Origin: a virus
DNA length: 32,807 nucleotides
Strand: one strand, 5' to 3'
Virus record (IMG/VR): IMGVR_UViG_3300049893_000782
Span: 1-32,807 of that record
Shown: in pieces, positions 3,014 through 12,836 of the stretch
Position numbering within the stretch: the stretch's first letter is position 1
How the letters are laid out: each line of letters begins with the position of its first letter
The notes under the pieces: model-generated
Seen by the model: only the letters and a program-made list of their open reading frames with translations
What the model was told of the DNA's origin: nothing
The model's database searches: none
Made by a program: the position numbers and the translations under genes

Positions 3014-3919
3014 TCAACCCTCAATCAGATCCCAAATAATCCCGGTCACGTTGAAGTCCAACAAGATGGCCTTCTCATAACCATTCACGAACGCACGACC
3101 AGCAGGGTTCTCGATGTTGTAGATACCGAAGTCAATGACCGTGGTACCATCACCATTCATGACCCATCCGTAGATCGAGCCTTCTTTTGTTCGCGGCAGA
3201 CCGAGCATGTCGTAGACCTCATTCAGGAATACGTGCCCGCGTGCGCGCAGCATGTCATTTACGTGGTTCTGCTGAATGCGGAGGAAATATAGATTCGTCT
3301 CCGCGCTCTTCTGCCACTGGGTCGAATATTCATCGAAGAACTTGGCGAAGCCACTGGTGGTCTTGTCTTTGACCGTCATGACCTTGACTTTCTGCTTCGT
3401 CACGGTGCCGTCTTCATTGACGACTTTCTCGTTCGTGGATGATTCGTAGATCCCCAGGCGATAGTTGCGATCAACATCAGGCCCGAGCTCTTCGACAACG
3501 CGCTTGCGATATGCGGCGAAACCTTCAGCGAGAAGATTGTAGCCAGCGATCAAACCGACCTCGCGGCGTTTCATGATCCCATGAGATGACAGGATGGATG
3601 CGATCGACAACACGCCAATACCAACAGAGGGTCCGTAGAGCTTGGCGAAATCGAGGCCAGCATAGATATAGGTCAGACCAACAGCCTGTTGCTTCTCTTC
3701 GGGAGCAGCGTCGCCTTCATCGATGGTCTTGAGATTTTCTTTCACACCTTCAACGATAGCTGGTGCTTTCAAGGTAGCCTTCGCCGCCATTACGGCAGCC
3801 ACGACAATACCCGTCAACCCAAGACCTAACAGGATCTCAGGTGAGTGCTTCTTCACGACCAATGCACCACGATTGATCGCACGCACAGCTTTTGTCTGCA
3901 CTGTAGCAAGACTGTTCAT
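3014..3919 (-). CDS. DUF6353-type phage membrane protein, copy 1
   Basis: 301 residues with two predicted membrane segments (about 28-46 and 95-112). The first contains KHSPEILLGLGLTGIVVAAVMAAKAT, a signature I associate with DUF6353 proteins of Gram-positive phages (quoted in part: KHSPEILLGLG then VMAAKAT). The middle has GPSVGIGVLSIAS and YRKRVVEELG, and the C-terminus FVNGYEKAILLDFNVTG. A paralogue lies at 9254-10036. Start ATG 3919 overlaps the stop of the preceding gene (ATGA), and an AGAAGGAG ribosome site is present. The frame continues past its TGA for 50 codons (2861-3013). Function is unknown; inner membrane location is inferred. Confidence 0.88.
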   Translation of the reverse strand: MNSLATVQTKAVRAINRGALVVKKHSPEILLGLGLTGIVVAAVMAAKATLKAPAIVEGVKENLKTIDEGDAAPEEKQQAVGLTYIYAGLDFAKLYGPSVGIGVLSIASILSSHGIMKRREVGLIAGYNLLAEGFAAYRKRVVEELGPDVDRNYRLGIYESSTNEKVVNEDGTVTKQKVKVMTVKDKTTSGFAKFFDEYSTQWQKSAETNLYFLRIQQNHVNDMLRARGHVFLNEVYDMLGLPRTKEGSIYGWVMNGDGTTVIDFGIYNIENPAGRAFVNGYEKAILLDFNVTGIIWDLIEG

Positions 3920-9208: not shown

Positions 9209-9234
9209 ATTATAGCCCTTGTAAATCGTGCGAG
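9209..9234 (-). promoter_or_regulatory. Promoter-like element, copy 1
   Basis: Minus strand: CTCGC (9234-9230), N5, TTACA (9224-9220), N5, TATAAT (9214-9209), then GAAAAGGAG. A short hairpin TGTGG/CCACA (9241-9261) at the stop codon of the DUF6353-type copy 2 precedes it, but without a T run. It drives the gene at 8994-9191. Confidence 0.72.
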
Positions 9235-9253: not shown

Positions 9254-10036
9254 TCACCACAACTTTGTTGGTTTGTTCGTGAACGTCAGTACGACGCATG
9301 GGACGTTGCCTGAAGCGAGTTTCGCTGAAATATCAATCTCCAGCAAACCCTTCTCTACGTCCCAACCGATATCACGTCCACTCTCCACGGAATCGAGACC
9401 CAATTCGTAATATAGGTCGTTGATCGGGAGTTGCATCTCTTTGAGAAGACGGTGATTGAATTCGTTGATCGTTCGCTTGATGTCCTCTACATCCCCTTTG
9501 AAATATCGGCCAGTGTAGGCATCATAGCAAAGAGTATCACCGAGACCGCTTACGATGATAGCTTTAGATTCCAACGGATTTTTTTTTAACTCGTCGGCAG
9601 CAATATCAGCGCGGATCTTCTTCTCTTTATTCTCGCCGATCGTTTCAACAACCTTCGCCTGGTATTCTTTGAGAGTGGATTCAGCAACTGCAAATAAGCT
9701 TGAGAGTGCGGCCGTTCGGCGATTGCTGATTGATGTTGCGCCAATGACGCATCCGATGCTCACCATACCCATTAGAGTAGATGGAGTATAGACCTTCCAG
9801 GTCAGTTGGATAGTATCAGCAAGGTTGATCGGGACATCGTATCCAGTTCCGTATTCATCATAACGGAAATTGCGTTCATGTTCGAGGATCTCCATCGCCT
9901 TGGGTGTTGCTTTTACTGCCATGACGACGGTGGATATGAATCCAGCAACTCCAAGCCCTGTGAGGATCGTGGGTGAGTGCTTGGTAAGCGTCCGTCCAAA
10001 TTGACGGGCAGCGTTAGTGATTAGGCTGAGATCCAT
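9254..10036 (-). CDS. DUF6353-type phage membrane protein, copy 2
   Basis: 260 residues, paralogous to the protein at 3014-3919. It has membrane segments at about 24-42 and 85-103, with TKHSPTILTGLGVAGF and VVMAVKATPKAM in the first, and PSTLMGMVSIG, SNRRTAALSSL and EYQAKVVETIGE in the middle. The C-terminal domain is shorter than in copy 1 and lacks the extension seen there. GAGGAAG precedes ATG 10036. It overlaps the 97-residue gene by 23 bp. Function is unknown; membrane location is inferred. Confidence 0.87.
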   Translation of the reverse strand: MDLSLITNAARQFGRTLTKHSPTILTGLGVAGFISTVVMAVKATPKAMEILEHERNFRYDEYGTGYDVPINLADTIQLTWKVYTPSTLMGMVSIGCVIGATSISNRRTAALSSLFAVAESTLKEYQAKVVETIGENKEKKIRADIAADELKKNPLESKAIIVSGLGDTLCYDAYTGRYFKGDVEDIKRTINEFNHRLLKEMQLPINDLYYELGLDSVESGRDIGWDVEKGLLEIDISAKLASGNVPCVVLTFTNKPTKLW

Positions 10037-10535: not shown

Positions 10536-10796
10536 TCATCCAAAACCATATTCTTGAGTACCATACTGGATGGTAGCAACATACGGTCTGCTTTTAAAAA
10601 TATCACTCCTCCACTCGATTATCCGACAAGGTGCATAGCGTTCGAACTCTTGTGCTTGCAACTTGTTTAATCGGTTATCTCGTGTTACGAGTAGCGCAAT
10701 AGCGCATCGGTTAATTTCAGCACGATCCCCCTGTCTCAGTGCTTCCAACAGCTCGTCCATGACTACATGGGCCAATTGAGGGTATTGATCGGCCAC
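10536..10796 (-). CDS. Small soluble protein, unknown
   Basis: 86 residues, mostly helical (VVMDELLEALRQGDRAEINRCAIALLV), with an aromatic C-terminus (YVATIQYGTQEYGFG). It overlaps the upstream gene by 34 bp and has only a weak ribosome site (CTGGTGG), so coupling is likely. Confidence 0.65.
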   Translation of the reverse strand: MADQYPQLAHVVMDELLEALRQGDRAEINRCAIALLVTRDNRLNKLQAQEFERYAPCRIIEWRSDIFKSRPYVATIQYGTQEYGFG

Positions 10797-10984
10797 CAGT
10801 TGAACAACACAGCCGGAATAAGATAGGCTACAGCCAACCAGAACAGGGCCTTGATGATGTCAATCATGTCCTTTACTCCTTTTCTCATACGGATTATGAT
10901 ACTCAATTCGTCGTTAACTCTTTTGGTAGAGATAACACGACCAATCGGTTTTACACGATGTGAGTGGTTAAATACTATGTGCAT
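10763..10984 (-). CDS. Small membrane protein with two possible starts
   Basis: 73 residues from ATG 10984 (site AAGAGGAG), with one membrane helix near the C-terminus (about 44-62). A second in-frame ATG at 10867 has an even better site (AAAAGGAG) and would give a 34-residue form with almost only the helix. Two forms of one membrane protein is a known arrangement in holin-antiholin genes, but no holin signature is seen. The ribosome site of the first start can be masked by the leader RNA described at 11014-11090. Confidence 0.68.
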   Translation of the reverse strand: MHIVFNHSHRVKPIGRVISTKRVNDELSIIIRMRKGVKDMIDIIKALFWLAVAYLIPAVLFNWWPINTLNWPM

Positions 10985-11013
10985 AGATTCTCCTCTTCAA
11001 GATATTTTTGACG

Positions 11014-11090
11014 AAAAAAGTGAAGAGCTGCGTATATTACTGTTGCCAGTCGTCATCTACTAATTTCGATAACTCTATACGAATCTCTTC
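11014..11090 (-). ncRNA. Candidate structured leader RNA or small RNA (three-way junction)
   Basis: Immediately after promoter-like copy 4 the minus-strand RNA can fold as follows: P1a GAAGAG (11090-11085) with CUCUUC (11027-11022); P1b CGUAUA (11081-11076) with UAUACG (11036-11031); P2 GUUAUC (11073-11068) with GAUGAC (11057-11052); P3 ACUG with CAGU closed by a GCAA tetraloop (11050-11039). Then follow A, C and UUUUUU (11019-11014). No ORF with a ribosome site lies inside. Alternatively CUCUUCA (11027-11021) pairs with UGAAGAG (10999-10993), which contains the ribosome site of the next gene. That two-state design suggests a cis-regulatory switch; it could also be a free small RNA. The exact 5' end decides whether P1a can form. 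Confidence 0.5.
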
Positions 11091-11116
11091 ATTATATACG
11101 TTGTAAATCCTGCGAG
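11091..11116 (-). promoter_or_regulatory. Promoter-like element, copy 4
   Basis: Minus strand: CTCGC (11116-11112), N5, TTACA (11106-11102), N5, TATAAT (11096-11091), then GAAGAGATTC. Unlike most copies it precedes a foldable leader rather than an immediate start codon. It directly follows the terminator at 11121-11148. Confidence 0.72.
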
Positions 11117-11120
11117 AAAA

Positions 11121-11148
11121 TGAAAAAGAAAGAAGCCTATGCGGCTTC
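11121..11148 (-). terminator. Rho-independent terminator
   Basis: On the minus strand GAAGCC (11148-11143) pairs with GGCTTC (11137-11132) around a 5-nt loop, followed by TTTCTTTTTC. The TAG of the 60-residue gene lies at the loop, so stop and terminator are merged. Confidence 0.85.
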
Positions 11149-11336: not shown

Positions 11337-11362
11337 ATTATAACCTATGTAATTCACGCGAG
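11337..11362 (-). promoter_or_regulatory. Promoter-like element, copy 2
   Basis: Minus strand: CTCGC (11362-11358), N5, TTACA (11352-11348), N5, TATAAT (11342-11337), then GAAAAGGAG. It abuts the terminator T run at 11363-11370 and drives the 60-residue gene. Confidence 0.72.
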
Positions 11363-11595: not shown

Positions 11596-11621
11596 ATTAT
11601 AGCATATGTTTCCCACGCGAC
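11596..11621 (-). promoter_or_regulatory. Promoter-like element, copy 3
   Basis: Minus strand: GTCGC (11621-11617), N5, AAACA (11611-11607), N5, TATAAT (11601-11596), then GAAAAGGAG. One base of the first block and two of the second differ from consensus; spacing is unchanged. It drives the 57-residue gene. Confidence 0.7.
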
Positions 11622-11839
11622 TAAAATGGTTTGTAAATAGTTTCAATAGGAGCTTCTATTTGATCACCGTGTGAATATAAACGTACGTAACCTGCTTTAG
11701 GCATCAGATCTACGTCGTGAATTGTGCAATCCTTGTATGTTTGATTTGTTTGGTCTTTAGCATCTTGTACAGATGTAGCGTCGATTTCTATTTCTCGTTT
11801 TCCCCCACCTTTTGTAGTCAGTTTAACTTTGAACCGCAT
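11621..11839 (-). CDS. Small soluble protein, unknown
   Basis: 72 residues, beta-rich start (MRFKVKLTTKGGGKREIEIDA) then SVQDAKDQTNQTYKDC, reminiscent of small alpha-beta domains. Not recognised. ATG 11839 follows GAAGGAG. An in-frame extension upstream exists but lacks a ribosome site. It lies downstream of the degenerate promoter-like copy 7 with a 50-nt leader that contains a hairpin (TTCCC/GGGAA, 11873-11885). Confidence 0.72.
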   Translation of the reverse strand: MRFKVKLTTKGGGKREIEIDATSVQDAKDQTNQTYKDCTIHDVDLMPKAGYVRLYSHGDQIEAPIETIYKPF

Positions 11840-11888: not shown

Positions 11889-11914
11889 TTTTTAATATGT
11901 GTTTTGAACGCGAG
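11889..11914 (-). promoter_or_regulatory. Promoter-like element, copy 7 (degenerate)
   Basis: Minus strand: CTCGC (11914-11910), N5, AAACA (11904-11900), N5, TAAAAA (11894-11889). The first two blocks and the spacing match the family; the last block is weak. It sits between the terminator at 11915-11950 and the 72-residue gene. Confidence 0.5.
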
Positions 11915-12287: not shown

Positions 12288-12313
12288 ACTATAGGATGTG
12301 TAACCTCTGCGAG
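12288..12313 (-). promoter_or_regulatory. Promoter-like element, copy 6
   Basis: Minus strand: CTCGC (12313-12309), N5, TTACA (12303-12299), N5, TATAGT (12293-12288), then a 27-nt leader. ATAGTGA (12292-12286) is complementary to TCACTAT (12265-12259) at the start codon, so the leader could fold over the start if transcription begins early enough. Confidence 0.65.
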
Positions 12314-12317
12314 GAGA

Positions 12318-12836
12318 CTATTTTGCGGTTTCGGGCTCGACAACGACCTTCACGTTTTTGTTCTCGATGAGCTCGATCGCGACCAGTTTGTGGAACTGAG
12401 CAGTACTGAATCCGAGCAGCGCACCCAGGAATGCGTCGAAAGCAATCAAAGTCGACACAATCTCTTCCGGATATGGAAGATGCCAGATCGCGGCCATCGC
12501 GCCGTAAAGGGTAATAAGGGCGGGAAGGAAGATCTGTGCGGTCCAGGTGAGGAATTCATACATGTTATTGGAAAGGATCCACGCGCTCGCCTTCGTATTC
12601 GTGACGAGTTTGACCAGATTCAAGCGATACATCGGGTTGGTGACGTTGAATTTGTTTGTGGAAATGCCGAGCAGCATGGCCAGGAACAGGTCAATGGCGG
12701 CAAGCGTCGATACGATTTCCGTACCATAGGGCAGCGCCCAGGTATTGGACATAGCCATGTAGAACACGCCGAGGGCGGGAAGCAGAACAAGTGTGATCCA
12801 CTTCAAAGCATCGTATACGCGGTTTGATAACATCAT
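12318..12836 (-). CDS. Holin, tandem-duplicated Dp-1-type (two domains in one chain)
   Basis: 172 residues made of two homologous units: residues 3-64 (LSNRVYDALKW, LPYGTEIVSTLAAIDLFLAMLLGIST) and 88-149 (LSNNMYEFLTW, LPYPEEIVSTLIAFDAFLGALLGFST), offset by 85. Each matches the Dp-1-type holin pattern of two membrane helices, and the usual family length is about 75 residues. The protein should have four helices. Holins form lesions in the inner membrane that time lysis. It overlaps the preceding gene (ATGA) and follows the tail adhesins, the usual lysis position, but no endolysin follows. Both units look intact, so this is a fusion rather than decay. Confidence 0.88.
   Translation of the reverse strand: MMLSNRVYDALKWITLVLLPALGVFYMAMSNTWALPYGTEIVSTLAAIDLFLAMLLGISTNKFNVTNPMYRLNLVKLVTNTKASAWILSNNMYEFLTWTAQIFLPALITLYGAMAAIWHLPYPEEIVSTLIAFDAFLGALLGFSTAQFHKLVAIELIENKNVKVVVEPETAK

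Follow-up and report, generated by a model that had tools for sequence, protein, structure and literature searches.

YonO of the phage SPbeta and gp64 and gp96 of the Thermus phage P23-45 are DNA-dependent phage RNA polymerases, each a single chain with a DxDGD motif (PMC5467207, PMC10770324). Each of the P23-45 enzymes has its own dedicated promoter motif, common to the relatives that carry the enzyme (PMC10770324); the YonO promoter is, according to its paper, still to be determined (PMC5467207). Such two-barrel, single-chain polymerases bear on the question of how cellular transcription originated. On the RNA side, bacterial small RNAs bounded by intrinsic terminators have their own promoter, a structured body, and a U-tract directly after the terminal stem. 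In translational riboswitches and RNA thermometers, a structured leader with a possible anti-SD sequence lies near the SD, and transcription attenuators have structure and a U-tract between the promoter and an ORF.

Here, we analyze a structured RNA on the minus strand of a 32,807-nt stretch of viral DNA (IMG/VR record IMGVR_UViG_3300049893_000782; hereafter, the window). The best reading of this locus, to which we give a probability of about 0.62, is that a phage promoter would produce a terminator-bounded small RNA, with read-through to a 73-aa ORF. The RNA would share the listed characteristics of terminator-bounded bacterial small RNAs, but differs in that its terminal stem would use the very first transcribed bases, which are fixed by the promoter. 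Unlike riboswitches and thermometers, it has no conserved or stable second state, belongs to no Rfam family, and is not gene-specific. Phage RNAs of this kind also differ from attenuators: no anti-terminator conformation was found, and the same architecture also occurs alone before other promoters. The features of the locus are collected in Table 1.

Table 1. Features of the locus and the other promoter copies, in window coordinates.
Feature	Position	Strand	Basis or remark
Promoter copy, TATAGT variant, short-leader type, G+1 12287	12288..12313	-	PWM
Promoter copy, short-leader type, G+1 11595	11596..11621	-	PWM
Promoter copy, short-leader type, G+1 11336	11337..11362	-	PWM
Terminator-like hairpin of the upstream gene, T-rich tail, just before promoter copy 4	11132..11148	-	sequence
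Promoter copy 4, CTCGCAGGATTTACAACGTATATAAT, G11090 directly after	11091..11116	-	PWM score 33.2, no hit in reversed control; element has 651 copies in the loci
Putative transcription start G, or preceding T 11091	11090..11090	-	class closing helices begin here; 42/387 SD positions
Whole closed RNA, about 70-78 nt	11014..11091	-	fold, pair probabilities, class scan
P1a 5' strand UGAAGAG (initially transcribed sequence, predicted)	11085..11091	-	pairs with 11021-11027, probability 1.0
P1b 5' strand CGUAUA	11076..11081	-	pairs with 11031-11036, probability 0.88-1.0
P2 hairpin, 6 bp, 10-nt loop	11052..11073 (11073-11068/11057-11052)	-	probability 0.99-1.0
P3 hairpin ACUG-GCAA-CAGU, GNRA loop	11039..11050 (11050-11047/11042-11039)	-	MFE structure
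P1b 3' strand UAUACG	11031..11036	-	partner of 11076-11081
P1a 3' strand CUCUUCA	11021..11027	-	partner of 11085-11091
U6 tract, probable terminator tail of the closed RNA	11014..11019	-	automatic detection of closure end and T-rich tail; same position in class
Ribosome site UGAAGAGGAG, includes second UGAAGAG (10993-10999)	10990..10999	-	sequence; alternative pairing not conserved, unfavourable
73-aa ORF, hydrophobic C-terminal half, 37 nt after closure	10763..10984	-	no relative found
Promoter copy, short-leader type, G+1 9208	9209..9234	-	PWM

The promoter element is widespread in phages. Copies in the window share the consensus TCGC-N7-ACA-N5-TATAAT|GA. A repeated promoter had already been recognized in the preliminary description; the repeat stands, and the window holds five copies rather than four. 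All five lie on the minus strand, as do the genes, and the reversed weight-matrix control gives none. The strict pattern is found in 24 viral stretches, while the pattern written backwards has no match in viral contigs and the strict pattern itself has none in 85k cellular genomes (257 Gb). A looser 15-base form yields scattered single matches in cellular genomes, about the number that chance would give for 257 Gb. A weight matrix built from 415 copies detects 651 distinct sites across the phage loci that were retrieved, and reversed sequence yields none. Cultured phages carry the element as well: Rhodococcus phage ReqiPoco6 (13 copies), Arthrobacter phage Gordon (10), Gordonia phage Secretariat (10), and Streptomyces phage ClubPenguin (8), with a reversed control of zero in all four. 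This distribution indicates that TCGC-N7-ACA-N5-TATAAT is a phage-specific promoter. A 4.1-kb contig of an Acidobacteria MAG (QHXL01000552.1) holds six copies and is possibly a misbinned phage. A likely decayed copy, CTCGCGTTCAAAACACATATTAAAAA, lies at 11889-11914 (-) of the window and precedes a gene that probably starts near 11839. When the motif text was sought in open-access papers, the matches listed were all unrelated.

Phages that bear the element also encode a two-barrel polymerase. Their protein of ~900 aa, annotated as an RNA-dependent RNA polymerase (phrog_4291), contains DFDGD, the catalytic motif of two-barrel polymerases. Since its sequence profile gave no meaningful match to PDB chains, a fold search was needed; the predicted structure (pLDDT 79) matches QDE-1 at E 1.6e-10, with further matches to plant RDR2 and Thermus phage P74 gp62. 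Thus, phrog_4291 resembles YonO (PMC5467207) and P23-45 gp64/gp96 (PMC10770324) as a single-chain phage RNA polymerase with DxDGD, but is linked to them by fold only, with no detectable sequence similarity to their PDB chains. It is encoded in 38 of the 43 motif contigs of at least 40 kb, and the five in which no polymerase was detected are possibly fragments. Conversely, 20 of the 23 contigs found only via the enzyme carry one to nine motif copies, on a single strand per contig, and the reversed motif is absent from all 23. This co-occurrence suggests that the phrog_4291 enzyme reads the TCGC-N7-ACA-N5-TATAAT element. A sharply defined promoter is now tied by co-occurrence to one two-barrel family, a point that was left open for YonO (PMC5467207).

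The window itself is a 32.8-kb partial genome without the polymerase gene, and its relatives encode phrog_4291. Its terminase shares ~75% identity with the terminases of ReqiPoco6, ClubPenguin, and Secretariat; the window is therefore part of a relative of these siphoviruses, and the RNA appears to belong to a lytic siphovirus whose relatives infect Actinobacteria. Lactococcus phage 1706 encodes a distant phrog_4291-type polymerase and lacks the element, and so its promoter should differ. SPbeta, the phage of YonO, differs likewise: no copy of the element was found there, the YonO region included. Other enzymes were considered for the promoter. A search for a T7-type RNA polymerase (PF00940) gave no match, but its control was equally silent. 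The +1 sequence GAAGAG resembles the start of the SP6 promoter, but this similarity was set aside, since the polymerase of these phages belongs to another family.

The bases directly behind the promoter are often complementary to a segment downstream. Within 180 nt, 72 of the 405 copies have an exact complement of their own +1..+6, and exchanging the downstream regions between copies gives 18.9 (maximum 35 in 5000 exchanges), although these permutation counts overstate the significance somewhat because related contigs are not independent. At least six Watson-Crick pairs from G+1 followed by a T-rich tail are found for 77 of the 651 copies, against 12.7 in grafted controls. For closures of at least 8 bp with a T-tail, the counts are 18 against 0.9, and for at least 10 bp, 10 against 0. 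We show that the first hexamer changes together with its partner (GAGAAG/CTTCTC, GAAGAG/CTCTTC, GAGGAG/CTCCTC, GAAAAG/CTTTTC), and that a strict four-by-four hexamer table is mostly diagonal (35/63, 4/39, 4/15, and 2/21). Exact closure is rarer for the GAAGAG form (6/39) than for GAGAAG (38/63). We read these paired changes as covariation of the closing helix at the class level.

Closed RNAs are found both before genes and alone. Among the 651 copies, 152 are closed and 499 are not, and 387 of the latter have an SD and a start codon within 40 nt (short leaders). An SD-ORF follows within 60 nt, with no promoter between, in 82 of the 152 closed copies (leader type), mostly 20-40 nt after closure; in 52, another promoter comes before any ORF (stand-alone type). 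The U-tracts of leader and stand-alone copies are equally strong (8.2 and 7.4 T in 13, respectively). For 29 of 100 proteins encoded behind closed RNAs, homologues lie behind short leaders. The RNA part can thus be exchanged and is usually not tied to the gene that follows, and we therefore read the closed RNAs as terminator-bounded, with the next gene fed by read-through.

Many unannotated structured phage RNAs are exposed in this way. An annotated tRNA of ReqiPoco6 (L167:2693-2776+) lies within a transcript that would run from a promoter copy to a U-tract. Behind the same promoter, a 107-nt RNA recurs at 19 loci (e.g., L253:11538-11640+, L074:3354-3460-, and L167:3143-3244+), with compensatory changes in 15 of 25 pairs and a covarying loop-loop pseudoknot (GAA/UUC); several of its loci have no Rfam match at gathering. 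It sometimes precedes unrelated genes, sometimes stands alone, and is absent from the window, where the best score to its model (R1) is 8.9 bits (E 1.1); the window RNA was thus rejected as a member.

Copy 4 is the only closed copy among the five in the window. As in the class, its +1..+6 have a complement downstream, and a T-rich tail comes directly after it: six Watson-Crick pairs run from G11090, with U11091-A11021 as a seventh, and the next 13 nt hold seven T. The distance from closure to ATG falls in the commonest bin of the class. The three-way junction of the preliminary description, with helices P1a, P1b, P2, and P3 (GCAA), is present on the minus strand with every helix where it had been placed, and P1a is one pair longer than had been claimed (11091-11085 with 11027-11021). 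P1a, P1b, and P2 dominate the predicted ensemble (pair probabilities 0.88-1.0). The 77 nt from 11092 to 11016 fold with an MFE of -22.0 kcal/mol (z -4.2), and none of 200 shuffles is equally stable. In a scan of both strands, 1.05% of 4364 segments of the same size have z <= -4. With ~1% of segments reaching this value, the fold is notable and not extreme by energy alone; taken alone, its stability is only suggestive. The nested repeat GAAGAG-N3-CGTATA...TATACG-N3-CTCTTC has a single site in the window (listed on both strands, since it is its own reverse complement) and none in 100 shuffles.

Comparisons with viral contigs, phage records, and related RNAs revealed no relative of the window RNA, and its helix pattern has no further match in viral sequences. 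The covariation asked of this fold in the preliminary description is thus borne out for the closing helix at the class level (+1..+6), and is missing for the inner helices P1b, P2, and P3 because no such relative was found. That description had also placed a structured RNA between a repeated promoter and a gene, which the class-level covariation of P1 upholds, and had suspected termination at the U6 run. The U-tract does look functional, as it is present in leader-type and stand-alone copies alike.

Whether P1a is part of the RNA depends on where transcription starts, because its 5' strand (11091-11085) directly adjoins the TATAAT of the promoter. The closing helices of the class begin at the G after TATAAT, and so a start at or next to this G is indicated. 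Short leaders also support a start near G: in 42 of 387 copies, the SD core lies 6 nt or less after TATAAT and would be lost if the start lay further downstream. We infer that transcription begins at or next to G11090, with (U)GAAGAG in the RNA. On this basis, the phage's own single-chain two-barrel polymerase (phrog_4291; YonO/QDE-1 superfamily) would transcribe from the TCGC-N7-ACA-N5-TATAAT element, and the first bases would pair with CUCUUC(A) at the 3' end, closing the three-way junction just before U6. P1 would then be a permanent closing helix, and the stem before a U-tract, rather than a switch helix. Termination at the U-tract is predicted for most transcripts, giving an RNA of 70-78 nt with a sequestered 5' end, and read-through past the U-tract may supply the 73-aa ORF.

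Two alternatives turn on the same few bases. The TATAAT could be the -10 box of a host sigma-A promoter; ordinary bacterial promoters of this type start ~7 nt further downstream, so that P1a would not be transcribed and the closure signal would reflect repeats at the DNA level. The hexamer is indeed host-like, and it does not vary among the strict matches, as the pattern itself requires. We consider this unlikely, given that the strict motif is absent from the 85k cellular genomes and its looser form is at chance level there, that base-pair conservation begins at the G after TATAAT, that 42 short leaders would lose their SD, and that the element co-occurs tightly with a phage polymerase. A start at 11084 would also favor the translational riboswitch or thermosensor of the preliminary description, in which CUCUUCA pairs either within P1 or with the ribosome site and thereby controls translation: modelled from that base, the second pairing forms with a probability of ~0.9. 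Both pairings do exist as sequence, as the UGAAGAG at 10999-10993 is a second exact 7-nt copy of the P1a 5' strand. In the model with P1a, however, P1 has a probability of 1.0 and the alternative, 5.6 kcal/mol worse, one of ~0. Nor does P1 free the ribosome site in the model as had been claimed; even when P1 is complete, the SD region is still mostly paired, its partner being the U-run (mean unpaired 0.17). Temperature has little effect, with the modelled mean unpaired value of the site rising from 0.14 at 20 C to 0.24 at 48 C while P1 remains formed. Of the 82 leader-type copies, 2 repeat their first hexamer ahead of the start codon, one of them being that of the window, against 2.7 in permuted sets, and Rfam gave no match for the window RNA either at gathering or at E <= 5. 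With an unfavourable alternative, an SD paired in both states, and no conservation, we reject regulation of this kind as highly improbable. The match with the ribosome site arises because both segments are purine-rich: the complement of a purine-rich start will nearly complement an SD. Thus, when an RNA is bound to pair with a fixed purine-rich 5' end, what looks like a riboswitch can arise as a side effect.

Attenuation is a serious rival to the terminator-bounded reading, though a tentative one. The closed RNA and its U-tract would be a cis terminator in front of the 73-aa gene, whose expression would be set by the rate of read-through, perhaps through a phage factor late in infection. The 82 leader-type RNAs, with their usual 20-40 nt spacing and no intervening promoter, fit this idea, as does the 37-nt spacing in the window. 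Yet 52 equally built RNAs precede another promoter instead, related RNAs lie before unrelated genes, homologous genes lie behind short leaders, and no alternative structure was found to be conserved. In another reading, the paired first bases might shield the triphosphate from pyrophosphohydrolase and 5'-dependent RNases and so stabilize the mRNA, with the U-tract as no more than a spacer. Closure does start exactly at the putative first base, also in leader-type copies, but the T-rich tail straight after closure and the stand-alone type point to termination, and most short-leader genes manage without such a structure (499 of 651 copies are unclosed). We consider protection of the 5' end improbable.

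A terminator-bounded small RNA would also place the window within a broader pattern. Many phages of Actinobacteria and related environmental phages probably share a dedicated promoter that a single-chain two-barrel polymerase reads to make a set of small RNAs, in which promoter-fixed first bases form part of the closing or terminator stem; the window RNA would be one of these, and the element would define the promoter of the family and its start. Since Gordon, ReqiPoco6, Secretariat, and ClubPenguin are cultured, the start site, sequence needs, and termination are directly testable.

The surroundings of the RNA show further features. Among viral contigs and phage records, the 73-aa ORF has no close relatives. 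It contains another ATG, preceded by a strong SD (AAAGGAG), and translation from this codon (10867-10763, -) would give a separate 34-aa membrane peptide. Stability is highest (z about -9) in two segments of the window, near 11417-11341 and 11972-11896 (-), which contain terminator-like hairpins between single-gene units. Proteins encoded at 9254-10036 and 3014-3919 (-) are of the same family (both phrog_2152), and the first also matches DUF6353. Finally, the two halves of a holin-like protein (12318-12836, -) match different holin families, phrog_881 and phrog_9233.
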